From Pelosinus propionicus DSM 13327 (GTDB lineage Bacteria > Bacillota > Negativicutes > DSM-13327): a stretch of 63,372 nt of DNA. Under the pieces are notes generated by a model. It saw nothing but the letters and a program-made list of their open reading frames with translations, searched no databases and had not been told where the DNA came from. Positions within the stretch are counted from its first letter, which is position 1. Each line of letters starts with the position of its first letter. Where the stretch lies: positions 1 to 63,372 of the forward strand of contig NZ_FOTS01000030.1 of NCBI RefSeq assembly GCF_900114615.1. Direction: 5' to 3'. Below are positions 10,099 to 28,718 of the stretch, in pieces. Made by a program: the position numbers and the translations under genes.

Positions 10099-11268
10099 AT
10101 GAAAACAGCTGATCAAGTGTTAGTAAAACAAATTAATAAAATGATTGTCTTGAATACCATTTATAAAAAAAGACCCATATCTAGAGCCGAAATCGCCAAA
10201 GTTACCGGGCTTAATAAGTCAACAGTATCTGCATTAGTGGATGAACTGCTTACGGAAGAGCTGGTTTTAGAAATGGGAGCAGGTGAATCACAAGGCGGGC
10301 GAAGGCCCGTTAATCTCTCTATTAATAAAGAGGTTGGCAATATTATTGGTATCGATTTAGGAGTCAATTACATCTTAAGCATTATGACAAACTTTGCAGG
10401 AGAAATTATTTGGGAAAAGCGCATTGATTTACAGCATGCCCATAACTCACCAGGGCAAAGAATTGCCGATTTGCAAACCTTAATAGAAGAAATGATAGTG
10501 AGTGCATCTCAGACGGTTCGGGGTATTATTGGCATTGGAATTGGCGTTCCGGGTATTGTAAATTATGAGCAGGGACTCATTTTATCGGCACCTAATTTAG
10601 GGTGGGAAAATATTGAACTTAGGTCAATGATTGAGCAGAAATTTGGTATCCCGGTATTTATTGATAATGAAGCAAATGCGGGTGCCATTGGGGAAAAATG
10701 GTTTGGCGCAGGAAAAAGAGCAGATGAGTTCTTATACATTAGTGCAGGCACGGGAATTGGAGCAGGAATTATTATTAATAATGAACTTTATCGAGGGTCA
10801 AAGGGACTGTCAGGTGAAATTGGGCATATGACAGTCTCTCTCGACGGGATACCTTGCTCTTGCGGTAATGCAGGCTGCTTAGAAGAATATGCGTCGGAAA
10901 AAGCCTTATTTCGCTATATGAAAGAGTATGCATGTGTGGAAGAATTGACAATTTTTAATATTATCGATAATGCGATTGCAGGGGACGAGGTGTCTCGGAA
11001 GGCATTTGAGTACGTAGGTAAATGCCTTGGTATTGGCGTGGCAAATCTGATAAATGCTTTCAATCCTCAACTTGTCATCATTGGAAATAGCCTGCCTTTA
11101 GTCGGTGATATTTTGATGAATGAATTGAGGAGAGAGGCTGAGAAACGCTGTTTTGCTTCTAAATATTTTTCGGTGAAAATCCTGCCTTCTCAGCTTAATA
11201 TGCATGCTTGCGCAATGGGGGCAGCTGCATTGGTCATTTCCAGACTCTATGCGTCACCGGTTTCGTGA
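10099..11268 (+). CDS. xylR: ROK-family transcriptional regulator, xylose repressor
   Basis: A 389-residue protein: a MarR-like winged helix near residues 15-75 (RPISRAEIAKVTGLNKSTVS), followed by a ROK sugar-binding domain. GIGIGVPGIVN and DNEANAGAIGEKWFGAG are ROK blocks, and CSCGNAGCLEEYAS is the zinc-binding motif. In Firmicutes such proteins repress xyl genes until xylose binds. The identification is supported by three xylO-like sites around the gene and by the xylBA-FGH genes downstream, all on the same strand. The function is inferred from these, not tested. Confidence 0.88.
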   Translation: MKTADQVLVKQINKMIVLNTIYKKRPISRAEIAKVTGLNKSTVSALVDELLTEELVLEMGAGESQGGRRPVNLSINKEVGNIIGIDLGVNYILSIMTNFAGEIIWEKRIDLQHAHNSPGQRIADLQTLIEEMIVSASQTVRGIIGIGIGVPGIVNYEQGLILSAPNLGWENIELRSMIEQKFGIPVFIDNEANAGAIGEKWFGAGKRADEFLYISAGTGIGAGIIINNELYRGSKGLSGEIGHMTVSLDGIPCSCGNAGCLEEYASEKALFRYMKEYACVEELTIFNIIDNAIAGDEVSRKAFEYVGKCLGIGVANLINAFNPQLVIIGNSLPLVGDILMNELRREAEKRCFASKYFSVKILPSQLNMHACAMGAAALVISRLYASPVS

Positions 11269-11283
11269 ATATACTTTTGGCAG

Positions 11284-11316
11284 CTGCTAACTAAAATATT
11301 TAATTTTAGTTAGCAG
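11284..11316. terminator. Palindromic hairpin after xylR
   Basis: CTGCTAACTAAAAT (11284-11297) pairs perfectly with ATTTTAGTTAGCAG (11303-11316). It lies 15 bases past the xylR stop, with no long T-run after it. It may end xylR transcription, or be a structure that limits read-through toward xylB. Confidence 0.55.
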
Positions 11317-11338
11317 GAATATGCATGTAAATATCGAA

Positions 11339-11363
11339 TTAGTTTATCTGACCAACAAACAAT
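11339..11363. promoter_or_regulatory. xylO-type operator, upstream site of the xylB promoter region
   Basis: The site starts TTAGTTTATCTGACC and ends AACAAACAAT, matching the half-sites of the 10032 palindrome. A GATAAT -10-like box follows at 11367-11372. XylR binding here would block the promoter of the xyl structural genes. Confidence 0.65.
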
Positions 11364-11422
11364 AAAGATAATAGTGTGAATGTAAGAGAGGTGATACCAT
11401 TTCGCTATATTTTTTTACTTGG

Positions 11423-11447
11423 TTAGTTTATCCAAGCAACCAACTTA
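11423..11447. promoter_or_regulatory. xylO-type operator, downstream site
   Basis: TTAGTTTATCCAAGC followed by AACCAACTTA repeats the same pattern exactly 84 bases (about eight helical turns) after the first site. Two in-phase sites would suit cooperative or looping repression. Confidence 0.6.
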
Positions 11448-11498
11448 TGTAGAAGTAAGGAAAAAGTTGTCGAATGATCAAAGGGGGGATAAGGCGGA

Positions 11499-12989
11499 AT
11501 GAGCTTTTTAGGAGTTGATTTAGGCACATCTTCTGTAAAACTGCTATTACTAAATAAAGCGGGAAGTGTATTACGAACAGTATCAAAAGAGTATCCTGTC
11601 TATTATCCTAAGGTCGGTTGGGCGGAACAAAGTCCTATGGATTGGTGGAATGCTGTCCGTGAGGGAATCCAAGAAATTTTGACTGAGCCTCAAAACATAC
11701 TAAGTAAAGTGGAGGGCATTGGCTTAAGTGGGCAGATGCATGGCTTGGTTCTGCTTGATAAAGACAATCATGTGCTGATGCCGGCCTTATTATGGTGTGA
11801 CCAACGTACTCAGAAAGAGTGTGAAGAACTCAGTGAAAGATTAGGGGATAAATTGTCGGAATATACAGGTAATAAGGCGTTGACGGGATTTACTGCCCCT
11901 AAAGTTTTATGGGTCAGAAAGAATCGCCCAGAGATTTATGAGCAGATCGAGCACGTTTTATTGCCTAAAGACTACATACGCTGGAAATTGACAGGAGAAT
12001 ATGCAACCGATACATCTGACGCATCAGGAACCTTGTTTTTTGATGTGGCTCATCGCTGTTGGTCATCAGAAATGCTGGATATTTTGGGGTTATCAGAGGA
12101 AAATTTGCCTACATGCTATGAATCTTATGAAATCACGGGCAGCGTAACAGAGCAAGCTGCACAGGAAACCGGACTTCATAGTGGCACTATCGTTGTCGGT
12201 GGCGGTGGTGATCAGGCGAGTGGTGCGGTAGGTACAGGTGTGGTAACGGCTGGTACGGTGTCGGTGGCATTAGGCACCTCGGGCGTGGTCTTTGCCTGTC
12301 AGGAGAATTATTCTGTTGACAGCGAAAATCATCTGCACTCTTTTTGTCATGCCAATGGAAAATGGCATGTCATGGGAGTCATGCTATCTGCTGCTTCTTG
12401 CTTAAAATGGTGGGTAGAAGAGGTTTGCCAATTCGATGATGCTGGTTATGCTGTGTTGCTGCAAGAAGCAGCAACCGTTCCAGCTGGGAGTGAAGGATTG
12501 CTTTTTTTGCCATATCTGATGGGAGAACGCACTCCGTATAGTAATCCAAATGCTAGAGGGACTTTTATCGGGCTGAGTATGACTCATGGTCGAGGTCATA
12601 TGACTCGAGCTATTTTGGAAGGTGTTGGTTTTGGCCTGCGTGATTCCTTGGAGATTATTCGCGAACAGCATATTCCTATTTATGAGGTTCGTTTGAGCGG
12701 AGGTGGAGCCAAAAGTGTTTTATGGCGTCAAATACTGGCTGATATTTTGGCACTGCCCATTCATGTGGTAAATTCGGCAGAAGGACCTGCCTTCGGCGCT
12801 GCCATATTGGCTGCAGTGGGGGTTGGGGCATTTTCCGATATGGAGGAGGCGTGCAGTGTGATGATTAAAGCCATGGAACAAACAGAGCCAATTGCAGCTA
12901 ATTTAGAAAAATATAATTCTTTATATGGGGTTTACCGTCAATTGTATAGTGCCCTTCAAGATTCCTTCGAAAAACTCAGTGTAATCTAA
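11499..12989 (+). CDS. xylB: Xylulokinase
   Basis: A 496-residue FGGY-family kinase that phosphorylates D-xylulose to xylulose 5-phosphate. The N-terminal phosphate-binding block [15 protein letters not shown], the substrate block [15 protein letters not shown] and the C-terminal [19 protein letters not shown] are all typical of XylB. Length is normal. An AAAGGGGGG ribosome site precedes the ATG at 11499. It is the first structural gene after the two xylO sites, and xylA follows 44 bases later. Confidence 0.93.
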
Positions 12990-18377: not shown

Positions 18378-19961
18378 TCAGCGCATTAGTTTTTCGAGGA
18401 GTTTATTCGTTACCGCTTGCTTTAGTTCTTCCTTGGAAACAGGAATATCCTGTTGTTTCAGTCTTTCTAACGCTTCTTGGCTAAGCTGTTCGGGATAGAT
18501 AGTTCCATAAGCCGTTTGAATTGCAATTCCAGAAATATCCGTAGTCGTTCCTTTCTTTACAAATAAGCCTGTCATCTTCTGAAAGGCGATGCCGTAGGTT
18601 TTGCCATCGTAGATACTAAAGTTTCCTCTAGTAACTGCCGTATCACCTTTACCGCTGACGTGACCGTTAAAAGCGAGAGGACCTTGAACATCTTTATCTG
18701 TTAATTGTGAACTAGTAAGGCCTTGTCCGTTTACATCTAGTTCATAACTTTGATCTTCTGTCATTACCGTTCCACTAGCAGCTATATTTCCCTGATAGAC
18801 TGTGCCTTGTACCTGCTGCAGCAATACTTTAGCGTCAGTATAACGAAAGTTTCCTGTAATGCCGTTGACTGCCATACTGCTGAAACTAATCTGAGGTAGG
18901 CTGAAATTGCCTGTGATTTGCGGTTGTGCAACGGATCCGGCAATTTGCACTTGCAAGGCTAGCGGACGCATTGCAGTTATTCCCGAGACAAAAGCGGCGG
19001 GATCAGCATCCGGTAAAGTCAAAGAAAAATCAAGGACGGCCATACCATCAACCCAGGAAATAGTGCCTTGACCTTGTGCCGGCTGACCAGAAATCAATAG
19101 GCTTACATCTTCGAAACGCATTCCTGTTTCATTACTGCTGAACTTTCCATGGCCTTGTTGAATTCCCACTTTACCATTTAATTTCAGATCAGAAAAACTG
19201 CCTTCTGCCTGATAGTGGAGGGTTCCTTTAGTGTCCTGTTTTACGGTAATCTGTAATGGCTGTATTGTGCCTGCTTCCAGAGAATAGGATGTATCGGCAA
19301 AAAGCTCTTTAAATTTAACTACATCAAGAGTATCAATTTGGATGTTAAAATCTCCGGGAAGGTTTTCTCCCCACTGTCCATTTACGTTTACTTGGCTTTG
19401 ATCCGCTTTGCCTTTTAGAGAAATTGTCATTTCTGGGCTGTTCTGCCAGTCAATGATACCCGTTGCATTTTCTAATACCTGAGAAAATAAGGCCGTTTCA
19501 ATATGTATTTTTCCGTCTTCTAACTCAACTTTACTGCGAAAGGACGTTGACTCATCTTGTTCCTTTTTTAATAAATCATCCCAGTTAAAATGGTTATTCG
19601 CTTGTTTGAGCCATAGTTCCCCACGTTCTAATGTTACTGTTTCAATTTTAGGAAGTCCTAGGCTGCCTCCGGTCAAGTCAGACCAGCGATATTGCATTTT
19701 GATGACTGGTACCTGGGCTAAAAGAACACCCTGTTGATCATAGAGAGAGACATCTTGAATTTTTATACGCCCAGACAATGACAAATCGACGCTTCCTACA
19801 GTCAACTGCCCGTTGAGTTGCTGGCTGACTCGCAAAAGAAGGGTGTCTTGTATATCCTGCCTAATTTTAACCGCAAATACCTGCCAAAGAACAAGCAATG
19901 TGCAAATTATACTTAGTGTGATGAATGTGAGTCGCTTATGTGATGCTATCCAATCTTTCAT
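18378..19961 (-). CDS. AsmA-like / TamB-like inner-membrane-anchored envelope protein
   Basis: A 527-residue protein with one N-terminal helix (RLTFITLSIICTLLVLWQVF) and a long beta-rich extracytoplasmic part. QLNGQLTVGSVDLSLSGRIKIQDVSLYDQQG is typical of the AsmA/DUF748 N-terminal repeat, and later segments contain many short beta repeats such as QGTISWVDGMAVLDFSLTLP. Family members form hydrophobic grooves that carry lipids across the periplasm, so this supports a diderm cell. It is shorter than TamB (over 1,200 residues). GGGGGCTAC lies before the ATG on the minus strand. Single gene; its promoter must lie in 19962-20300. Confidence 0.75.
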   Translation of the reverse strand: MKDWIASHKRLTFITLSIICTLLVLWQVFAVKIRQDIQDTLLLRVSQQLNGQLTVGSVDLSLSGRIKIQDVSLYDQQGVLLAQVPVIKMQYRWSDLTGGSLGLPKIETVTLERGELWLKQANNHFNWDDLLKKEQDESTSFRSKVELEDGKIHIETALFSQVLENATGIIDWQNSPEMTISLKGKADQSQVNVNGQWGENLPGDFNIQIDTLDVVKFKELFADTSYSLEAGTIQPLQITVKQDTKGTLHYQAEGSFSDLKLNGKVGIQQGHGKFSSNETGMRFEDVSLLISGQPAQGQGTISWVDGMAVLDFSLTLPDADPAAFVSGITAMRPLALQVQIAGSVAQPQITGNFSLPQISFSSMAVNGITGNFRYTDAKVLLQQVQGTVYQGNIAASGTVMTEDQSYELDVNGQGLTSSQLTDKDVQGPLAFNGHVSGKGDTAVTRGNFSIYDGKTYGIAFQKMTGLFVKKGTTTDISGIAIQTAYGTIYPEQLSQEALERLKQQDIPVSKEELKQAVTNKLLEKLMR

Positions 19962-20303: not shown

Positions 20304-20322
20304 GATAACAATTTTCATTTTC
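20304..20322. promoter_or_regulatory. Candidate Fur box upstream of tonB (distal)
   Basis: GATAACAATTTTCATTTTC matches about 13 of 19 positions of the GATAATGATAATCATTATC consensus. It is weaker than the site at 20396. The rest of 19962-20300 is A+T-rich, and I see no gene in it; it should hold the minus-strand promoter of the AsmA-like gene. Confidence 0.35.
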
Positions 20323-20469: not shown

Positions 20470-21117
20470 TTGATAATGTCTTATAAGAGTAGTTGGAATA
20501 AAGCAATTGCTTTATCTATTTTTTTACATATCTTTCTTTGGGTAACAACGGGTTATTTGGCTTTTCGAGAGCAAGATGTTCCTTTTGCTGATGAAAAGGT
20601 GATGGAATTAAGTTTAATCGATGTCCCTGGTGATGATACGGCAGAGGCGGAGCCGCAGATTGCAGCAGCAGCGCCTCTGCCGGAGATTCCGATTGAACCG
20701 GAGATTCCTCCAGAGCCCCAGCCTCCAATTGTTGAAGATGATATAGCAGAAAAAGTAGTAGAACCTATCAAGATACCAGATGCGAAAGAAGGGGCTGTTA
20801 TTTCGCCTGATCAAGCAAATTCAGGTGGAAAAAAAACTGGATTTGGAACACCGCCAATTGTATTAGTTAAAGTTGATCCTGTGAATCCTCCAGAGATGAA
20901 AGAAGTTGGACGTAAGGTTAATGTTGTGCTGCGCATGCAGATTTTAAAGAATGGATTGCCAGGCAAAGTGGCAATCGCAGTTCCGTCTGGCTATAAAAGT
21001 ATTAATGACGCTGCAATCGCCGCAGCTAAGAAATGGAAATTTGAACCTGCAAAAGATAATGAAGGAAAGCCAATCGTTTGTCTTACCATATTAACAATTC
21101 CCTTTGCAATAGAATAG
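20470..21117 (+). CDS. tonB: TonB energy transducer
   Basis: A 215-residue protein with an N-terminal membrane anchor (residues about 11-31), a Pro/Glu-rich periplasm-spanning stretch (PEIPIEPEIPPEPQPP), and a C-terminal TonB domain from about 130 (VLRMQILKNGLPGKVAIAV, INDAAIAAAKKWKFEPA). It couples the proton gradient to outer-membrane receptors. No ExbB, ExbD or TonB-dependent receptor is nearby, so partners lie elsewhere. The TTG at 20470 has GTGAGGT about six bases upstream; ATG at 20476 is the alternative. It precedes the iron-uptake genes and has a Fur-like site. Confidence 0.85.
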   Translation: MIMSYKSSWNKAIALSIFLHIFLWVTTGYLAFREQDVPFADEKVMELSLIDVPGDDTAEAEPQIAAAAPLPEIPIEPEIPPEPQPPIVEDDIAEKVVEPIKIPDAKEGAVISPDQANSGGKKTGFGTPPIVLVKVDPVNPPEMKEVGRKVNVVLRMQILKNGLPGKVAIAVPSGYKSINDAAIAAAKKWKFEPAKDNEGKPIVCLTILTIPFAIE

Positions 21118-21139: not shown

Positions 21140-21168
21140 TTGACAATACGTATATTTAGCAGTATTAT
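21140..21168 (+). promoter_or_regulatory. Sigma-A promoter of the iron-uptake operon
   Basis: TTGACA (21140-21145) is 17 bases from TATTAT (21163-21168), close to the sigma-A consensus. Transcription would start near 21175, leaving a leader of about 150 bases before the FTR1 gene. Confidence 0.65.
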
Positions 21169-21175
21169 TTTCAAG

Positions 21176-21190
21176 TGAGAATGATTATAT
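21176..21190. promoter_or_regulatory. Fur-like box at the iron-operon start site
   Basis: TGAGAATGATTATAT fits the 7-1-7 Fur pattern with three mismatches and sits at the predicted transcription start. Confidence 0.5.
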
Positions 21191-21274
21191 ATATCATCGT
21201 TGAAAATATTTCCATATTTCGTATTTGAGATCGCTAAACTTTAATTCATTGTAGAATGTTTCATTTTATTAAAT

Positions 21275-21327: not shown

Positions 21328-22515
21328 ATGCGTAAATGGTTACTCGTTGTTATTATGGCATTTATAGTAGTTAGTCAGGGAATGGTTTTTGCAGCACCTA
21401 AGTGGGATGCTGTCGTTGATAAAATAGAAAAAACGATGGATCAGTCTCTAACCGTATATAAAAGTGGAGACACAGCTGGGGCGAAAAAAATAGTAAATGA
21501 TGCGTATTATGGGATGTATGAAAAAGATGGCTTGGAGAAGGCAGTAAATTCAACTGTTTCCGCTAAAAGGGCCAACTTAACGGAATATAAGTTCAGCACT
21601 ATTAAAAAATTAATGACCAATCAAGCGCCTGAAGCAGATGTCAAAAAGCAGATGAAAGAGCTAATTGGGATGATGCGTGAAGACATTGCTCAAATGGACG
21701 GCGGTGGTAAACAAAGCAGTTCTATGGCAACTTTTTGGCCAGCCTTTCTGATCATGGTTCGTGAAGGCGCGGAAGCAATTTTGGTTATTGGTGCTATTAT
21801 TGCTTATCTGATTAAGTCTGGAAATAGTGAAAAAACACAAGTCATTTATAATTACTCTGGAGCTGCTATCGTAGCGAGTTTTTTAACAGCTATTTTATTC
21901 CGCTCTGTGATTAATCTCAGTGGTGCCAGCCAAGAAATTATGGAAGGTATGACGATGCTGGTAGCGGTGTTTGTACTTTTGTCTGTTGGACATTGGATGA
22001 GCAGTAAGTCGGATGAAAAATCATGGGGCAATTATATTGAAGGCAAGGTTCAAAGTTCTTTGACCAAAAACAACACTTTTTCCTTGGGAGTTGCTGCTTT
22101 TTTAGCTGTATATCGTGAGGGGGCTGAAGTCGTTTTGTTTTATCAGGCATTATTTAATGATGCCGGTGATGATATGCAAATGATTTGGTTAGGATTTGGT
22201 GCAGGATGTCTTGCTTTAGTAGTAATTTTTGCAGTGGTCCGCTATGGTAGTGTGAGAATTCCATTGAAACCTTTTTTTCAGGGAACTAGTATTTTAATGT
22301 TTATTTTAGCAATTAGTTTTGCTGGTGGTGGAGTGAAAGAACTACAGGAAGGAGGTTTAATTGGGGTTACGCTTCTTGAGGGGATGCCCATGTTTGATCT
22401 TTTGGGAATCTATCCGACTGTAGAGACTCTATTACCACAACTCTTTCTTATATTAATGGTTGCTGGAAATGTCATGTATCAAAAAAGAAAAAAAATTAGG
22501 GAGGTCGTATCATGA
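21328..22515 (+). CDS. FTR1-family iron permease with periplasmic N-terminal domain
   Basis: A 395-residue protein. A signal peptide (residues 1-23) leads into a helical extracytoplasmic domain of about 110 residues, then seven or so membrane helices. The two iron-translocating REGAE motifs start at Arg145 (MVREGAEAIL) and Arg263 (YREGAEVVLF). The layout is that of the FTR1 proteins linked to P19, as in Campylobacter jejuni and pathogenic E. coli (FetM). GAAGGAGGTG precedes the ATG at 21328, better than an ATG at 21304. The P19 gene overlaps its stop by four bases. Confidence 0.92.
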   Translation: MRKWLLVVIMAFIVVSQGMVFAAPKWDAVVDKIEKTMDQSLTVYKSGDTAGAKKIVNDAYYGMYEKDGLEKAVNSTVSAKRANLTEYKFSTIKKLMTNQAPEADVKKQMKELIGMMREDIAQMDGGGKQSSSMATFWPAFLIMVREGAEAILVIGAIIAYLIKSGNSEKTQVIYNYSGAAIVASFLTAILFRSVINLSGASQEIMEGMTMLVAVFVLLSVGHWMSSKSDEKSWGNYIEGKVQSSLTKNNTFSLGVAAFLAVYREGAEVVLFYQALFNDAGDDMQMIWLGFGAGCLALVVIFAVVRYGSVRIPLKPFFQGTSILMFILAISFAGGGVKELQEGGLIGVTLLEGMPMFDLLGIYPTVETLLPQLFLILMVAGNVMYQKRKKIREVVS

Positions 22516-23066
22516 ATTTGAAAAAGTTTTTATCAATGACTTTTGTTAGCTTAGCAGTATTGGTGTTAACAGTAGGACAATCTTTTGCAGCTGGGTTCCA
22601 GGAATATCCTATCGGTGATGATATCGAAGTACCGGAAGCAGGGTTTAAAGTGGCTCTAGTTTATTTTCAGCCAGTAGCAATGGAACCAGCAGGTATGGGA
22701 TTGACTCCTGATAAGTCAGATATTCATCTGGAAACAGATATTGCTGCTATTGAAGGAAATAATACCGGTTATGGCGTTGCTGAATTTATTCCTAACTTAA
22801 CTGTACATTATAAATTAACTAAAAAGAGCACTGGCGAAGTGATTGAAGGTACTCTTATGCCGATGAATGCTAGTGATGGACCACATTATGGTGCAAACAT
22901 CAAAATGAAGGGTGCCGGTACATACGATGCAGCCTTTACAATTGAGAGTCCAAATCGCCAAAATTACTTGCTGCATGTGGATAAAGAAACAGGTGTTGAA
23001 GGACGTTTCTGGACCAAACCAGTAGTTCTACATTGGGATTTCGATTATATTCCTAGAAGTTGGTAA
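22512..23066 (+). CDS. P19/FetP-type periplasmic iron (copper)-binding protein
   Basis: A 184-residue protein with a cleaved signal (ending QSFAAG) and an immunoglobulin-like P19 (Tp34/Tpd) domain. Likely metal ligands sit in PAGMGLTPDKSDIHLETD, SDGPHYGANIKM and YLLHVDKETG. P19 dimers bind iron and copper and hand iron to the partner FTR1 permease. It starts within the last codon of the permease gene (ATGA overlap), so the two are translationally coupled. Confidence 0.92.
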   Translation: MNLKKFLSMTFVSLAVLVLTVGQSFAAGFQEYPIGDDIEVPEAGFKVALVYFQPVAMEPAGMGLTPDKSDIHLETDIAAIEGNNTGYGVAEFIPNLTVHYKLTKKSTGEVIEGTLMPMNASDGPHYGANIKMKGAGTYDAAFTIESPNRQNYLLHVDKETGVEGRFWTKPVVLHWDFDYIPRSW

Positions 23067-23078
23067 ATAAAAGACTAG

Positions 23079-23107
23079 CGGTCCGGGATGATTTCCCGGA
23101 CCGTTTT
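23079..23107 (+). terminator. Intrinsic terminator inside the iron cluster
   Basis: CGGTCCGGGA (23079-23088) pairs perfectly with TCCCGGACCG (23094-23103), followed by TTTT. It lies between P19 and the DUF2318 gene. A weak promoter-like pair, TTGTCA (23171) and TGCTAA (23195, spacing 18), is found before the next gene. Confidence 0.7.
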
Positions 23108-23249
23108 ATAGTTTAAGAATTTCATGGTCTTCCTATTTTTGCACACAGAGAAAATATTCTAGGGTGTGCTTTGTCACTTTATAGTTACAAGGAATGCTAA
23201 AGCTATTCTTTTTAGTCTGTTTAGAAAACTAAAATGAAAGGAGAAAAAT

Positions 23250-24512
23250 ATGCTGCAAAGTATACTGCAAAACATGATCCCGGCTATGCAAAATTTAGCC
23301 ATTGCTTTTATCCCCTTAGCCATGCTGTTGGCTTTGGCTAGTAAAGATGAGACGGGAACTTTTAAAAAGTTGGTTAGGCGCGGGATCTTTTGGGGAATCA
23401 TGGGGGCCGCTTTTATCGCAACTGTCAAGTTAGGCACAAAAGCCGTAAAACGGGAAGTGTATGAAGGTTTAGTTCTTGTGCTGGGGCTAATTGGCGAAAT
23501 GTCACTGCTGAGCTTTCTTTGGTGGAATGTTAGACAAGGGATTTCTGTTGATAAATATAAGTTGGCAGGTAGTGCTTCTTGTATTGTTGCTGCTGCCCTG
23601 CTGCTGTATCATGGATTGGATTTTATTCTTTTTCCGATTGAGATGATTACCTTTACAAATGAGATAATCAGCTTAGAGTTCCTTATGAAAATGATTGGAT
23701 TTTTATTAGGAGGGCTTTTGACCTGGTTGACTGGACTGGCAATTGTCCGGGCTGCAAGTCTTTTGTCTGCCCAGAAGATTATTGCTATTTTTGCGGCACA
23801 ACTTTTAGTGGTTATGGCAAAGCAAGCTCTTATTGTCGTCCAAATCATGGCCGTAAGAAAAATCTTCTTGACCACGAAACAAATGACACCGATTATAGGG
23901 CCCTTAATTAATCATCAGGTTTGGTTCTTATATGCACTGCTTACAGTTACATTGCTTTTGACAGCGGTGTTGATTTTGCAGCGCAAGCCGGAGAAGCCTA
24001 TGGGGCTTAATCCTGCTCAATATAGAAAAATACTAATGCAGACTCGCAAAAAGATGCGCTGGAGCGGAGCATTAGCTTTAGGTGTATGTACCATGTTTCT
24101 GCTTTCAACCGTTGGTATGGCTTATGCCGATGAAAAAGTTGAAATTGTTCCGGCTGTAGCGGTAGTCGCCGAAGGTGAGCAAGTCCGTATTCCCTTGGAA
24201 AAAGTTGATGATGGCCATTTGCACCGCTTTTCTTATCGTTCATCAACAGGTGAAATCGTACGGTTTATCGTGATCAAAAAGAGTGGTTCGGCGTACGGTG
24301 TTGGATTGGATGCTTGTGAAATTTGCGGACCAACAGGTTATTTTGAACGGGATAATCAGGTGATTTGCATGTTATGCGATGTTGTAATGAATACAGCAAC
24401 TATTGGTTTTAAAGGCGGGTGTAATCCAATTCCGCTGGCATACAAGGTAAGTGAAGGAAAAATGATCGTACCTTTAGAGGCTTTAGAGCAAGAAAAGGGA
24501 CGATTTAAGTAA
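23250..24512 (+). CDS. Membrane protein with C-terminal DUF2318 cysteine domain
   Basis: A 420-residue protein: about eight membrane helices in residues 1-300, then an exported C-terminal domain (about 310-415) of the DUF2318 type. Five cysteines stand out: Cys356 and Cys359 (CEIC), Cys373 and Cys376 (CMLC), and Cys391 (GGCNPIPL). In Campylobacter-type P19 clusters a DUF2318 protein accompanies the permeases, and its role is unknown. The paired CxxC motifs could bind metal, iron-sulfur or haem-like groups, or act in thiol redox. Fusion to a membrane domain suggests electron transfer through the membrane, which is inference. Confidence 0.82.
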   Translation: MLQSILQNMIPAMQNLAIAFIPLAMLLALASKDETGTFKKLVRRGIFWGIMGAAFIATVKLGTKAVKREVYEGLVLVLGLIGEMSLLSFLWWNVRQGISVDKYKLAGSASCIVAAALLLYHGLDFILFPIEMITFTNEIISLEFLMKMIGFLLGGLLTWLTGLAIVRAASLLSAQKIIAIFAAQLLVVMAKQALIVVQIMAVRKIFLTTKQMTPIIGPLINHQVWFLYALLTVTLLLTAVLILQRKPEKPMGLNPAQYRKILMQTRKKMRWSGALALGVCTMFLLSTVGMAYADEKVEIVPAVAVVAEGEQVRIPLEKVDDGHLHRFSYRSSTGEIVRFIVIKKSGSAYGVGLDACEICGPTGYFERDNQVICMLCDVVMNTATIGFKGGCNPIPLAYKVSEGKMIVPLEALEQEKGRFK

Positions 24513-24525
24513 AGGAGGATGTATC

Positions 24526-25809
24526 ATGTTTTGGGAGATGCTGAAAGGAGCTCTTGTTAGGCAGAGCCGAAAAATGTTCATGGTAGCTCTTACCATAGCA
24601 TTGGGCGTTTCGTTGACAACAGCCATGCTGAATGTAATGCTTGATGTAGGCGATAAGGTAAATCGGGAACTGAAAGCGTATGGAGCAAACATTACAGTGA
24701 TTCCTCGGGCAGCATCAGTCTTACGCGATGTTTATGGAATAGAAGCCAGCTCTGGAAAAACAGGGCAGTATCTGCAGGAAGCTGATGTTGGTAAGTTAAA
24801 AACAATTTTTTGGGCTAATAATATTGTTGCATTTTCTCCTTTACTCGAAACCAAGGCTACCGTTGGTTCTGATGACATAACCGTAGTAGGTACCTGGTTT
24901 AATCGACAATTGGAACTGCCTACGGGGGAAGTTGTGGCAACAGGGATCAAAGAGCTGAAATCCTGGTGGACAGTTGAGGGGAATTGGATTAATGATGCTG
25001 ACATTAAGGGAGCAATGGTTGGGTCTACTTTAGCTCGGAAATTAAATCTTCGTATCGGTGATTCAGTCGAGGTTGCCTTGCCTGGAGGTGTTCAGCGAGA
25101 GACTTTAACTGTGCAAGGTATTTTTAATAGCGGTGGTGCTGAAGATGATCAAATCTTTGTGACCCTGCCTTTTGTCCAGCAAGGACTAAATCTGCCAGGT
25201 AAAATTGGCAAAATAGAAGTAAGCGCTATCACAACACCAGAAAATGAATTAGCCCGCAAAGCTGCCCATGATCCCAAAAGTCTTTCATTGAAAGAATGGG
25301 AAACCTGGTATTGTACAGCTTATGTAAGCTCAATTGCTTATCAAATTGAAGAAGCCGTTGGCGATTCTCGTGCCAAGCCAGTACGACAGGTAGCTGAATC
25401 AGAGGGAACCATTCTGCAAAAGACTCAGCTGTTAATGCTGCTGATCACAGGGCTTAGCTTAGCTGGATCAGCCCTCGGAATCTCCAATCTTTTAATGGCT
25501 AATATTATGGAACGCAGTCGGGAGTTTGGTTTGCTGAAAGCACTTGGTGCAACAGATCGAGATGTTTTATTGCTAACTCTCACGGAAATTATGACGACTG
25601 GCTTATTTGGTGGTATTGCTGGCTATTTCTTAGGCTTAGGATTTGCCCAAATTATTGGTCATAATGTATTTGGCACAGCAGTTGCAATTAATGCGATGGT
25701 TATTCCTTGGGTCATTATTTCAGTAATTCTGATTACTTTGGTCGGTAGCCTTCCGGCTATGCGAATGCTTTTATCGCTGCGTCCGGCAGCAGTACTTCAT
25801 GGCAGGTGA
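24526..25809 (+). CDS. FtsX/MacB-like ABC permease, first subunit
   Basis: A 427-residue protein with an N-terminal helix (MFMVALTIALGVSLTTAML), a periplasmic MacB-PCD-like domain (about 45-285), and three C-terminal helices from about 305. MERSREFGLLKALGATDRDV is the cytoplasmic coupling motif of FtsX permeases. Such mechanotransmission-type transporters move periplasmic substrates or proteins rather than importing across the membrane. AAAGGAGGA precedes the ATG. It pairs with the next permease and the ATPase at 26961, as in the P19 clusters of Campylobacter. Confidence 0.88.
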   Translation: MFWEMLKGALVRQSRKMFMVALTIALGVSLTTAMLNVMLDVGDKVNRELKAYGANITVIPRAASVLRDVYGIEASSGKTGQYLQEADVGKLKTIFWANNIVAFSPLLETKATVGSDDITVVGTWFNRQLELPTGEVVATGIKELKSWWTVEGNWINDADIKGAMVGSTLARKLNLRIGDSVEVALPGGVQRETLTVQGIFNSGGAEDDQIFVTLPFVQQGLNLPGKIGKIEVSAITTPENELARKAAHDPKSLSLKEWETWYCTAYVSSIAYQIEEAVGDSRAKPVRQVAESEGTILQKTQLLMLLITGLSLAGSALGISNLLMANIMERSREFGLLKALGATDRDVLLLTLTEIMTTGLFGGIAGYFLGLGFAQIIGHNVFGTAVAINAMVIPWVIISVILITLVGSLPAMRMLLSLRPAAVLHGR

Positions 25810-25814
25810 CAAAG

Positions 25815-26945
25815 ATGACAAAATATTCAATGTACACGAAGATGATATGGAACGCCTTACTTCGTCGGCGATCTCGCATGTTGATTGCGTTATTGGCTGT
25901 AGCAATTGGCGCGACGGTTGTATCTGGTCTTGTTACTATTTATTACGATGTTCCTAGGCAAATGGGCAGGGAGTTTCGCTCCTATGGTGCTAATTTATTG
26001 TTAACACCTGCTGGTGATCAGCAAGTGATGATGCAAAACCTGGTTGCCAATGCAACTGCGCTTTTGCCGTCCGATAAGCTAATTGGCATTGCACCGTATT
26101 TGTATGACCGAATTAAACTGAATGAGCAGCCTTTTCTAGTTGCAGGTACGAGTTTCCAGGCGGTAAAGAAAGTAAGTCCATATTGGCAGATTCGTGGTGA
26201 GTGGCCAGCAGATCAGTCTGAAGATATCGTGATTGGTGCGGAAGTGGCAGAACGATTAGAAATTGAGCCGGGGCAGCAAGTGACTCTGGCTGTAGCTGGC
26301 AGCGAAGCTGAGAAAAAGGTGAAAGTTGCTGGTATTCTGCGAACAGGAGGATCGGAAGAAAATTTTATTTTTCTTGATCTTACCTTGCTTCAACAAATGT
26401 TAAAGAAGGAAGGTGTGATTAGCATTGCTCAGGTCAGTATTACGGCTAATGAGACAGAGCTAAACACTCTAACACAGCAAATTGGGGAGAAGGTTCCCGG
26501 TATGGAGCCGCGCCTAGTGAAACAAGTGACTCAATCGGAACAGACCGTTCTTGGAAAACTGCAAGCGCTGGTTTATTTAGTAACAATTGTAGTATTGCTG
26601 CTTACTTTAATTTGCGTAGCTACAACGATGATGGCAGTTGTTACAGAGCGCCGTAAAGAGATTGGTTTGAAGAAAGCACTGGGGGCGGAAAATCGCAGTA
26701 TTATCTTTGAGTTTTTAGGGGAAGGTTTAGCATTAGGAGCCTTAGGCGGCCTGCTGGGGACTGTGTTAGGATTCTTTTTTGCTCAAGCGGTAAGTGTCAA
26801 CGTTTTTGGCAGGATGATTTCATTTCAGCCATTGATTGCGCTTTTAGCATTGGTTGTTTCTATAGCAGTTACTGGATTAGCATGCCTAGTCCCAGTAAAA
26901 ATTGCAACGGAAGTTGAACCAGCGATTGTACTTAGAGGCGAGTAG
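25815..26945 (+). CDS. FtsX/MacB-like ABC permease, second subunit
   Basis: About 376 residues with the same plan as its neighbour: helix at about 17-40 (MLIALLAVAIGATVVSGLV), an extracytoplasmic domain, and three helices near the end. Its coupling motif is TERRKEIGLKKALGAENRS. I choose the ATG at 25815, with GGCAGGTGA upstream; GTG at 25806 overlaps the preceding stop and is the alternative. The two permeases presumably form a heterodimer. Confidence 0.87.
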   Translation: MTKYSMYTKMIWNALLRRRSRMLIALLAVAIGATVVSGLVTIYYDVPRQMGREFRSYGANLLLTPAGDQQVMMQNLVANATALLPSDKLIGIAPYLYDRIKLNEQPFLVAGTSFQAVKKVSPYWQIRGEWPADQSEDIVIGAEVAERLEIEPGQQVTLAVAGSEAEKKVKVAGILRTGGSEENFIFLDLTLLQQMLKKEGVISIAQVSITANETELNTLTQQIGEKVPGMEPRLVKQVTQSEQTVLGKLQALVYLVTIVVLLLTLICVATTMMAVVTERRKEIGLKKALGAENRSIIFEFLGEGLALGALGGLLGTVLGFFFAQAVSVNVFGRMISFQPLIALLALVVSIAVTGLACLVPVKIATEVEPAIVLRGE

Positions 26946-26960
26946 AGGAGGTTAATGGAT

Positions 26961-27650
26961 ATGAGTTTACTAGAATTGCATGATGTATCGATGATTTATG
27001 GGAGTGTGAAAGCTCTTCAAGGAATTGATTTAACAGTAGAAAAAGGCGAATGGCTGGCACTGATGGGACCATCCGGGTCTGGTAAAACGACCCTAATGAA
27101 TATAATCGGTTGTATGGATAAAGCGTCAACGGGATCTATTGTTTTAGATGGTGTAGACTTTACCGATGTTACTGCAGGGAACTTGACAATGCTCAGGAGA
27201 GATAAAATTGGACTGGTGTTTCAGCAGTTTCATCTGATTCCTTATTTAACAGCAGTAGAAAATTTAATGGTAGCTCAATATTATCACAGTATGCCTGACG
27301 AACAAGAAGCGTTATTGGCTTTAGAGCGAGTAGGACTTAAAGAAAGGGCTCGTCATTTGCCTAGTCAGCTTTCCGGCGGCGAACAGCAAAGGGTATGTAT
27401 TGCTCGCGCTCTAATTAACTATCCTATGTTGATTCTAGCTGATGAACCAACGGGTAATTTGGATGAAACCAATGCCAAACTTGTATTAGAATTCTTTCAG
27501 CAGCTTCATCGTGAAGGGCACACCATTATTATGGTTACTCATGATCCGAAAGTTGCCGAGCTGGCTGAACGGTGCATCGTCTTGGAGCATGGCCGCATAG
27601 CAAATCGGAAGGATCGTAGAATTGTGTGCAGGGAGGAAGAAGTTTCATGA
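26961..27650 (+). CDS. ABC ATPase, LolD/MacB type, of the iron cluster
   Basis: About 229 residues with Walker A GPSGSGKTT, Q-loop VFQQFHLIPYLT, signature LSGGEQQRVCIARAL, Walker B LILADEPTGNLDE and the switch in MVTHDP. These are standard marks of the LolD/MacB/FtsE ATPases that serve FtsX-type permeases. The ATG at 26961 is nine bases after GGAGG; the ATG at 26955 would be too close. It overlaps the lipoprotein gene by four bases. Confidence 0.92.
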   Translation: MSLLELHDVSMIYGSVKALQGIDLTVEKGEWLALMGPSGSGKTTLMNIIGCMDKASTGSIVLDGVDFTDVTAGNLTMLRRDKIGLVFQQFHLIPYLTAVENLMVAQYYHSMPDEQEALLALERVGLKERARHLPSQLSGGEQQRVCIARALINYPMLILADEPTGNLDETNAKLVLEFFQQLHREGHTIIMVTHDPKVAELAERCIVLEHGRIANRKDRRIVCREEEVS

Positions 27651-28114
27651 AAAAAAGATGGTTGTCCATAGCAGCAGCAGGTGCCTTAGTTGGCCTTCTC
27701 CTTGCTGGCTGCAGTAGTCAAAAAGCAAATAATGTGCACAGTGACAGTAATCATAGTGAGCATAACCACAGTTATAAGGATGGCACCTATACGGCTAAAA
27801 GCAGCCCTGATGAGCGAGGAGCAGTAGGTGAAATAACTCTTACGATTCAACAGGGAAAAATCGCCAAGGCCGACTATCGAGGAATTCAAAAAGATGGTAA
27901 GGTTAAGGATATAGATTACGGAAAGACAAGCGGGAAAATTGAAAATCCTGAATTCTATCAAAAAGCGCAGCAAGGAGTAAAAGGGGCAGCGACCTATGGA
28001 CCTAAGCTGATCGAAACGCAAAATGTGGATCGTGTAGATTCTATTTCCGGGGCAACTGTTTCTCATAAGCAATTTATTGAAGCTGTAAAAATAGCATTAG
28101 ATCAGGCAAAATGA
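27647..28114 (+). CDS. His-rich FMN-binding lipoprotein
   Basis: A 155-residue lipoprotein (LLLAGC, lipid Cys22) with a short linker containing four histidines (VHSDSNHSEHNHSY) and then an FMN_bind domain from about residue 47. DSISGATVS includes SGAT at Ser134-Thr137, the motif in which ApbE attaches FMN covalently to the threonine, as in NqrC, RnfG and PplA. It closes the iron cluster, where Campylobacter has thioredoxin-like proteins. A role in reducing iron outside the cytoplasm is inference. The His linker may bind metal. ATGA overlap with the ATPase shows coupling. Confidence 0.88.
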   Translation: MKKRWLSIAAAGALVGLLLAGCSSQKANNVHSDSNHSEHNHSYKDGTYTAKSSPDERGAVGEITLTIQQGKIAKADYRGIQKDGKVKDIDYGKTSGKIENPEFYQKAQQGVKGAATYGPKLIETQNVDRVDSISGATVSHKQFIEAVKIALDQAK

Positions 28115-28125
28115 GTACTCTATTT

Positions 28126-28176
28126 AATAAAATAAGCGGAGAAAATCGTTTTACGATTTTCTCCGCTTATTTTATT
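28126..28176. terminator. Terminator of the iron cluster
   Basis: Perfect 24-bp arms around a TTT loop, beginning AATAAAATAAGCGGAG. The right arm ends CTTATTTTATT. It would also end transcription from the minus-strand lipoprotein gene. Confidence 0.85.
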
Positions 28177-28232: not shown

Positions 28233-28718
28233 TTATTGAACTGTTACCCAGAGTTCACTAGCTCGTTTTATTTCTGTGGTGTTGGGAATTATGGTAAGTT
28301 TACCTTTGCCTGGAGCTATAGCTGTAAATATAGCTTTACCCGTCTCTGGACCACCTGTTTCTTGTTTTAGTATATCTCCAAAGAAGTATTCACCTGATGA
28401 GGTAAATCGTGTATTCTGAGTAAGACCTGGTGCTGGTTCAAGGATTAATTTTTGCCCTACCTTTAACATTAAATTATTAGCAGATAACTGTACTTTTTCA
28501 TTATCATTGTAGTTATAGACAACCTTAATATCTTTCAGGTCGTTTACTGGTTTTGTAGGAGATGGTGGCGTTGTTGGAGCTGCAGGAGTCGTTGGAGAGG
28601 GAGTGGGATCAACAGGAGTAACTGGGTTAAGATTTGTGCATCCTCCCAGAAAAAATGCCGCTGATAGGAATAAGCCTATAGTAAGATTGATCCATTTTCG
28701 ATCTTGCATACTTTTCAT
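28233..28718 (-). CDS. Proline-rich lipoprotein of unknown function
   Basis: A 161-residue lipoprotein: signal with lipid Cys27 (AAFFLGGC), a Pro/Thr spacer (PTPSPTTPAAPTTPPSPTKP), and a C-terminal domain of about 100 residues. The domain has an Ig-like flavour (KVVYNYNDNEKVQLSANNLM and a final ASELWVTVQ). I do not recognise a family. GGGAGG precedes the ATG at 28718 on the minus strand. The long spacer suggests that it stands off from the membrane through the wall layer. Confidence 0.72.
   Translation of the reverse strand: MKSMQDRKWINLTIGLFLSAAFFLGGCTNLNPVTPVDPTPSPTTPAAPTTPPSPTKPVNDLKDIKVVYNYNDNEKVQLSANNLMLKVGQKLILEPAPGLTQNTRFTSSGEYFFGDILKQETGGPETGKAIFTAIAPGKGKLTIIPNTTEIKRASELWVTVQ

Follow-up and report, generated by a model that had tools for sequence, protein, structure and literature searches.

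A P19/FTR1-type iron-uptake cluster of Pelosinus propionicus with an FMN-binding lipoprotein in seventh place: a possible periplasmic electron relay

What does a flavin protein do at the end of a gene cluster for iron uptake? The question is raised by seven genes on the plus strand between positions 21328 and 28114 of a 63,372-nucleotide stretch of DNA from Pelosinus propionicus DSM 13327 (contig NZ_FOTS01000030.1; hereafter the window), the last of which encodes a predicted lipoprotein with a flavin mononucleotide (FMN)-binding domain. A preliminary description made from the sequence had placed an iron-uptake cluster of the Campylobacter P19 type here. Open reading frames (ORFs) and Pfam searches bore out this locus as well as the gene families and their order; the coordinates are correct for all seven genes, and the main Pfam match of each protein lies above the curated cut-off. 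The genes follow the order of fetMP-fetABCD with one further gene at the end:

21328..22515, plus strand: FTR1-family iron permease (FetM-like); PF03239, E=1.6e-34; two REGxE motifs; signal-peptide-like N-terminus by eye
22512..23066, plus strand: P19 (FetP/FtrA-type), predicted periplasmic iron-binding protein; PF10634, E=2.7e-60
23250..24512, plus strand: FetA-like protein, membrane domain and C-terminal DUF2318 (FtrD-like); PF10080, E=5.2e-31; five invariant Cys
24526..25809, plus strand: FtsX/MacB-type permease 1 (FetB-like); PF02687, E=3.3e-18, and PF12704, E=2e-13
25806..26945, plus strand: FtsX/MacB-type permease 2 (FetC-like); PF02687, E=5.6e-20, and PF12704, E=1.2e-12; alternative ATG at 25815
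26955..27650, plus strand: LolD/MacB-type ATP-binding cassette (ABC) ATPase (FetD-like); PF00005, E=1e-34
27647..28114, plus strand: FMN_bind lipoprotein, the seventh gene; PF04205, E=1.4e-7, 32.5 bits (cut-off 22)

Families, order and published cluster descriptions support the assignment to the Campylobacter P19 type, and on these grounds it is hardly in doubt that the locus is a P19/FTR1 (fetMP-fetABCD) iron-uptake cluster in its known Firmicutes form, with a predicted FMN-binding lipoprotein in seventh place. The most likely function of the whole is a periplasmic electron relay that aids iron import by FTR1 and P19. This reading is preferred because of the families and their order, the published form of the cluster, its recurrence, the co-occurrence with ApbE, the retained lipobox and GA[ST] motifs of the seventh protein, the varied redox carriers found in its slot, and the Fur-box-like sites.

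The core of the cluster is strongly conserved. In a scan of named genomes, which covered the best 80 P19 loci by similarity and is not a random sample, the first six genes stood in identical order in 45 of the 48 loci with enough flank, and the gene order is therefore not due to chance. In two of the three exceptions (L076, L108) FTR1 lies just past the 1.7 kb limit, and in the third (L111) there was no FTR1 call. The two REGxE motifs of FTR1 occur in all 44 aligned sequences (alignment A4, the window and 43 of 63 others). P19, aligned with nine other P19 loci (A1), is 97% identical to the protein of a Pelosinus fermentans metagenome-assembled genome (MAG), and its relatives in the PDB by sequence are led by 3nrp (8.9e-47) and include the P19 structure 3lzl (5.2e-34) as well as FtrA; the same search with FTR1 returned a single irrelevant match. 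For the ATPase, NCBIfam placed MacB, FtsE and others on top and LolD fifth, all of the best 25 of 190 matches being below their cut-offs.

Neither the cluster nor its flavin-bearing end is new. The P19 system is widespread, human-associated bacteria included. The 33 species in which Liu et al. (2018, PMC6083913) report the cluster include Pelosinus sp. UFO1, and these authors describe an FMN-binding protein as the seventh gene in Firmicutes and others. Meheust et al. (2021, PMC8238504) counted an FMN-binding domain in 260 P19 clusters, and the role proposed in both studies is a redox function during iron uptake. The FMN-type P19 architecture is thus known since 2018 and 2021, and the view that this variant had not been described is refuted. 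We found no essential difference between the window and the published FMN-type clusters of Firmicutes, Actinobacteria, Spirochaetes and Synergistetes; a linker with four His is a local detail. The best-studied relative is fetMP-fetABCDEF of Campylobacter jejuni (CJJ81176_1649-1656; Liu et al., 2018; Richardson-Sanchez, 2023), which shares with the window the first six genes and their order, the gap between P19 and fetA and the Cys motif of DUF2318. Upstream, it has a Fur site where the window has Fur-box-like sites. The two differ at the ends, where C. jejuni has two thioredoxins rather than one FMN lipoprotein and, upstream, a hypothetical gene instead of tonB. In C. jejuni, fetA, fetB, fetC and fetD singly and fetEF jointly support growth under iron limitation (PMC10783030).

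We then considered what the seventh protein carries to its slot. A pattern reading gives a lipobox, LAGC, after a hydrophobic N-terminus, followed by the linker SSQKANNVHSDSNHSEHNHSYK, which holds four His. Near the C-terminal end stands DSISGAT, which fits Dxx[ST]GA[ST], a pattern that we take to be the ApbE-type flavinylation motif:

27737..27769, plus strand: four-His linker stretch; 2 of the 30 aligned proteins have four His, the other 28 none or one
28046..28057, plus strand: SGAT, predicted FMN attachment site at Thr137; GA[ST] in 30 of 30 aligned proteins

Alignment A3 comprised the window and 29 of the 31 loci with FMN_bind as the seventh gene (L082, which is cut off, and L111 were left out). 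Both the lipobox pattern and GA[ST] were present in all 30 proteins, while the exact Dxx[ST]GA[ST] was found in 25, four of the remainder having Ala before GA and one Glu for Asp. The predicted model matches single-domain FMN_bind structures: CPE2226 (3o6u; Z=13.0, root-mean-square deviation (rmsd) 1.9 over 102 residues), SaFMN3 (8p2a; Z=10.5) and CbFMN4 (8p2b; Z=8.7) share the fold, with the difference that the domain of the window is part of a lipoprotein in an iron cluster. That an FMN lipoprotein replaces the thioredoxins, as was first proposed, agrees with PF04205, the lipobox, DSISGAT and the published rule for the cluster. The four-His linker and the SGAT motif named together with it are indeed present, but the weight placed on the linker does not hold: its only carriers among the 30 aligned are the window protein and that of the P. 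fermentans MAG, and a metal site on these His was dropped as a candidate.

Among 60 genomes searched, P19 was found in 15, own genome included, and within the genus in 6 of 8, likewise counting the own genome. Fourteen of these 15 have FMN_bind no more than about 8 kb from P19; in the fifteenth (G010) the contig stops before the expected place. FMN_bind follows the ATPase gene in 31 of the 80 named loci, across several phyla, with 25 further loci in which the seventh slot could not be assessed. The recurrence of an FMN_bind lipoprotein next to P19 and FTR1, which the preliminary description had proposed to look for, was thereby established, and the ApbE gene sought in this genome was present as a single match (E=2.6e-87) on contig C53 rather than on that of the window, with a lipobox-like FISGC near the N-terminus by eye. 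ApbE was found in 15 of 15 P19-positive genomes versus 23 of 45 P19-negative ones (22 when matches under the cut-off are left aside; Fisher p=0.0004, kinship not corrected). Six of the 15 have it next to the cluster, upstream in G013, G017, G034 and G045 and downstream in G026 and G039. These six and G052 are also the genomes in which the cluster protein is the sole FMN_bind match and ApbE a single match, ApbE lying at the cluster in all but G052, which makes the seven clean test cases. The own genome has a second FMN_bind protein elsewhere (a 203-aa frame), probably an RnfG-like candidate.

The same data bear on whether the lipoprotein might be a general flavoprotein of extracellular electron transfer, similar to PplA, that shares no more than its location with the operon. 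PplA is its sole NCBIfam match (E=5.4e-12), with 45.5 bits far short of the cut-off of 325. The retention of position 7 in the 31 loci and an ATGA overlap between the ATPase gene and the start of the FMN gene also oppose this, and we regard such a reading as highly improbable.

A broader view of the slot supports a role in electron transfer. Most Proteobacteria have a thioredoxin here, and cytochrome genes were already noted as an eighth gene in some of them (Liu et al., 2018, PMC6083913). Two Desulfovibrio MAGs (L075:15298-15963 and L110:6366-6875) encode a class III cytochrome c (c3) with four heme motifs in the seventh slot itself. Since unrelated redox carriers, i.e., flavin, heme and thioredoxin, occupy one slot, electrons are likely transferred there, and the flavin form suggests a redox station at this position. 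Another arrangement was seen in seven Gilliamella/Orbaceae loci, where a small protein follows the ATPase and is followed by a second FtsX-LolD pair. By Pfam the small protein was DUF4418 in both of the loci tried (L046, L057) and also in L102; at L027 (genome G026, outside the 80) DUF4418 and the second pair precede FMN_bind. DUF4418 and the additional FtsX-LolD ABC pair follow the ATPase at these positions:

L046:14954-17446
L057:15241-17792
L027:10081-12527
L102:9884-12896

In L046, from Gilliamella sp. Choc5-1, a stop codon splits the fetA frame (10562-11818), which is unbroken in five other Gilliamella loci.

The genes in front of the cluster gave a further, unexpected link. The preliminary description had left out of the cluster a tonB gene, which in Negativicutes is a conserved neighbour of FTR1. 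The features in the window are:

20470..21117, plus strand: TonB-family protein; TonB_C PF03544, E=4.6e-11; no exbB/exbD adjoining here
20304..20322: Fur-box-like site upstream of tonB; 15 of 19 bases on the better strand, reached by 4 of 300 dinucleotide shuffles; sequence match
21177..21195: Fur-box-like site between tonB and FTR1; 15 of 19 bases on the better strand, reached by 3 of 300 dinucleotide shuffles

We surveyed 34 loci from the class of the window or from named Negativicutes (L029 and L018, whose contigs equal those of L032 and L033 in length, left out; the near-duplicates L050/L051 and L040/L041 kept). TonB adjoins FTR1 in 30 of the 33 assessable loci, and exbB-exbD precede tonB in 24 of 31. 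A same-strand apbE flanks the cluster in eight of the 34, and in six (L019, L020, L021, L033, L035, L042) the full order is apbE-exbB-exbD-tonB-FTR1-P19-fetA-fetB-fetC-fetD-FMN, L035 having two tonB-like genes in this run. At L019 (965-3645), for example, apbE-exbB-exbD-tonB lead the P19 cluster in an operon-like run. In the other 59 named loci, a tonB profile found no match over the 2.5 kb preceding P19, a result to be read with the profile's origin in mind, as it was grown on Negativicutes and may miss others. None of the own genome's 19 TonB-receptor and two ExbD matches is on the contig of the window. The gene order suggests a connection of the system with flavinylation and with a step at the outer membrane. 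In the C. jejuni model the outer-membrane receptor was left unidentified (Liu et al., 2018, PMC6083913; PMC10783030), and a literature search for a link between apbE, ExbBD-TonB and P19 gave nothing relevant among the matches listed.

Fur-box-like sites were scored against a 19-base consensus that we presume to be the standard one. Where apbE leads the cluster (six loci), the top-scoring site in the 250 bases preceding this gene reached 17, 16, 16, 16, 15 and 14 of 19, scores attained by 0, 0, 0, 0, 2 and 18 of 300 dinucleotide shuffles, respectively; L020 and L021 belong to one genus and share their site. The tonB-FTR1 gaps of five other loci of the genus Pelosinus scored 15 or 16, and before tonB three loci of the genus scored 15 or 16 and L022 just 12.

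Where would electrons come from on the membrane side? A candidate is FetA, whose DUF2318 domain holds a conserved set of cysteines:

24315..24422, plus strand: CxxC-x13-CxxC-x14-C of DUF2318 (Cys356, 359, 373, 376, 391); the motif quoted by Liu et al. (2018)

In FetA alignment A2 (the window and 64 of 67 others, without L048, L050 and L080) the five Cys are invariant and both CxxC motifs are kept in 65 of 65 sequences. The spacing CxxC-x13-CxxC-x14/15-C holds in 61, and the other four have a slightly longer first gap. These cysteines might also be the target of the FMN lipoprotein, which would then never meet iron and, like a thioredoxin, would set the redox state of FetA or of another envelope protein. 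Flavin domains without a CxxC of their own seldom perform thiol exchange, and cytochrome c3, which takes this place at two loci, would not do disulfide chemistry. Such thiol maintenance would agree with the invariant CxxC pairs and with the position of the FMN lipoprotein where thioredoxins are found in other bacteria (PMC6083913); on balance we consider it quite unlikely.

The nature of the DUF2318 domain was approached through its predicted structure. The AlphaFold2 (AF2) model of FetA had a mean predicted local distance difference test score (pLDDT) of 90.6 and a predicted template modelling score (pTM) of 0.77. VIA-align of the whole model against the PDB matched residues 308-418 to the Rieske ferredoxins 1vm9, 5bok, 4p1b, 2qpz and 2e4q (Z 8.6-9.0, barely over the Z of 8 that VIA-align calls common; rmsd 2.9-3.7), aligning 91-97 residues of targets of 102-111, and these were the only entries on this segment among the 50 matches listed. 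Strand order agrees between the two (strand, loop 1, two strands, loop 2), and the two CxxC pairs lie near both Rieske ligand loops, as judged by end-to-end offset of the aligned ranges rather than by residue-level alignment and with ligand residues of 1vm9 numbered as we presume them to be. The ligand pattern itself differs: CxxC...CxxC in 65 of 65 FetA sequences versus CxH...CxxH in 10 of 10 Rieske sequences. Sequence similarity was also absent. In hhalign, DUF2318 (60 sequences; alignment A5, the window and 59 of 67) against the ten Rieske ferredoxins gave a probability of 0.9 over 14 columns outside the Cys region, similar to the controls P19 and FMN (0.7 and 0.3). The DUF2318 profile against the PDB returned six weak matches, all ribosomal S29/uS14 (best E=0.053) and none of them Rieske; a PDB search by sequence with FetA found no match, and Foldseek with the model none at E <= 0.001. 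The Rieske likeness is thus one of predicted fold. Lenient Pfam searches with five DUF2318 domains gave FtrD-like and, under the cut-off, zinc ribbons (L033, E=0.00026; L104, E=0.0029) and Ephrin_rec_like. These weak zinc-ribbon matches make a Rieske domain less likely, and by sequence a zinc-ribbon-like, zinc-binding domain is open too.

In the literature, the Cys pattern has been compared with iron-sulfur domains (Liu et al., 2018, PMC6083913). The word 'Rieske' is absent from both Campylobacter papers (PMC6083913, PMC10783030), and no Rieske proposal appeared among the matches listed for FtrD, FetA and P19. We advance as a possible, though doubtful, extension that DUF2318, retained in the P19 clusters surveyed, may be a Rieske-fold domain with an iron centre on four Cys where Rieske proteins use two Cys and two His. 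It would serve as the station on the membrane side of a one-electron relay in which the mobile partner changes from lineage to lineage (covalent FMN, thioredoxin or cytochrome c3), and in some Negativicutes flavin transferase, TonB-ExbBD, relay and permease would form one Fur-controlled operon. If true, a family-wide electron path would be open to simple spectroscopy. This possible domain, the ApbE-ExbBD-TonB linkage and the cytochrome c3 variant are the main interest of the locus.

The membrane part of FetA gave several candidates that were set aside. A b-type cytochrome was rejected on the absence of any His or Cys conserved in at least 60% of the alignment. Degenerate FTR1 ancestry (hhalign probability 64, E=6e-5, 12% identity over 200 columns, both being helical membrane proteins) is not claimed, nor is kinship with the PDB folds that matched it, mostly of the major facilitator superfamily (MFS) type and other transporters, at Z of about 8.5-10.6, which are common for helical bundles.

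Taken at the level of sequence, the components are seven families in order, a flavinylation motif, a lipobox pattern, a genomic ApbE, recurrence and linkage, from which a path may be drawn. Iron would enter the periplasm through a TonB-dependent step at the outer membrane and be bound there by P19. ApbE would join FMN to the predicted site, Thr137, of the lipoprotein, and the flavin together with the Cys-rich DUF2318 of FetA would pass electrons to iron at P19 or at the permease, which would then be imported by FTR1. The FtsX-LolD unit is probably a mechanical or export-type device of the type VII ABC kind that drives or resets the relay, not an iron importer. Such a reductive relay is, in our estimate, reasonably probable, and the earlier proposal of ferric reduction with DUF2318 feeding the flavin is plausible.

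The direction of electron flow may, alternatively, be the reverse, with FMN and FetA accepting electrons from ferrous iron and FTR1 moving ferric iron, as has been proposed for FtrABCD and yeast Fet3/Ftr1. FtrABCD of Bordetella and Brucella shares with the window an FTR1-family permease and a P19-type protein (FtrA) but differs in its cupredoxin FtrB; in the window, Pfam matched none of the seven genes to a cupredoxin family, and there are an FtsX-LolD unit and an FMN protein. Flavin potentials are low, so that oxidation of ferrous iron would need a strongly stabilised ferric form. In favour of reversal, Pelosinus is an anaerobe and would need an electron sink other than oxygen. Furthermore, Cu-FtrB oxidises Fe2+ in vitro, and the FtrABCD permease is predicted to draw on the free energy of Fe2+ oxidation (PMC11966278). 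All considered, we judge a reversed relay unlikely.

Several observations weigh against a reductive relay and are set out together here. The thioredoxins FetE and FetF of C. jejuni may be oxidases in vivo (PMC10783030), which would also suit the reversed direction. The membrane part of FetA offers no conserved His for heme. Two genomes of the genus, 89% and 85% complete, are without P19. In 24 of the 80 named loci at least 700 bases follow the ATPase and no FMN_bind was found, absence being judged by our own profile and a GA[ST] scan, with Pfam run on one downstream ORF each in eight of the 24, which include the two Desulfovibrio and the seven Gilliamella/Orbaceae loci; the flavin is therefore not essential to the system. 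Finally, the six operon-leading ApbEs (e.g., L019:965-1951) have no signal peptide or lipobox by eye, a poor fit with flavinylation of an exported lipoprotein; the downstream ApbEs (L024, L027) have hydrophobic N-terminal stretches.

The remaining features concern transcription of the cluster and are suggestive at most, as promoter-like sites in the region (28 versus a shuffle mean of 21.0, sd 4.2) are not much above and terminator-like sites (7 versus 6.5) not above chance:

21140..21168, plus strand: sigma-70-like promoter before FTR1, TTGACA-17-TATTAT; agrees with the consensus at 11 of 12 bases, the best promoter-like site here
23077..23105, plus strand: terminator-like hairpin in the P19-fetA gap; 12 pairs, 8 G-C; suggestive
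28130..28172, plus strand: terminator-like hairpin downstream of the FMN gene; stem of 20 pairs, 7 of them G-C

In C. jejuni, the same gap between P19 and fetA is the suspected seat of fetA regulation (PMC10783030). Two flanking genes lie on the minus strand. An AsmA/TamB-like protein (18378-19961), with matches under the curated cut-offs, is encoded upstream of tonB. Convergent to the cluster is a small lipoprotein-like ORF (28233-28718) without a Pfam or NCBIfam match, which has a Pro/Thr-rich stretch.

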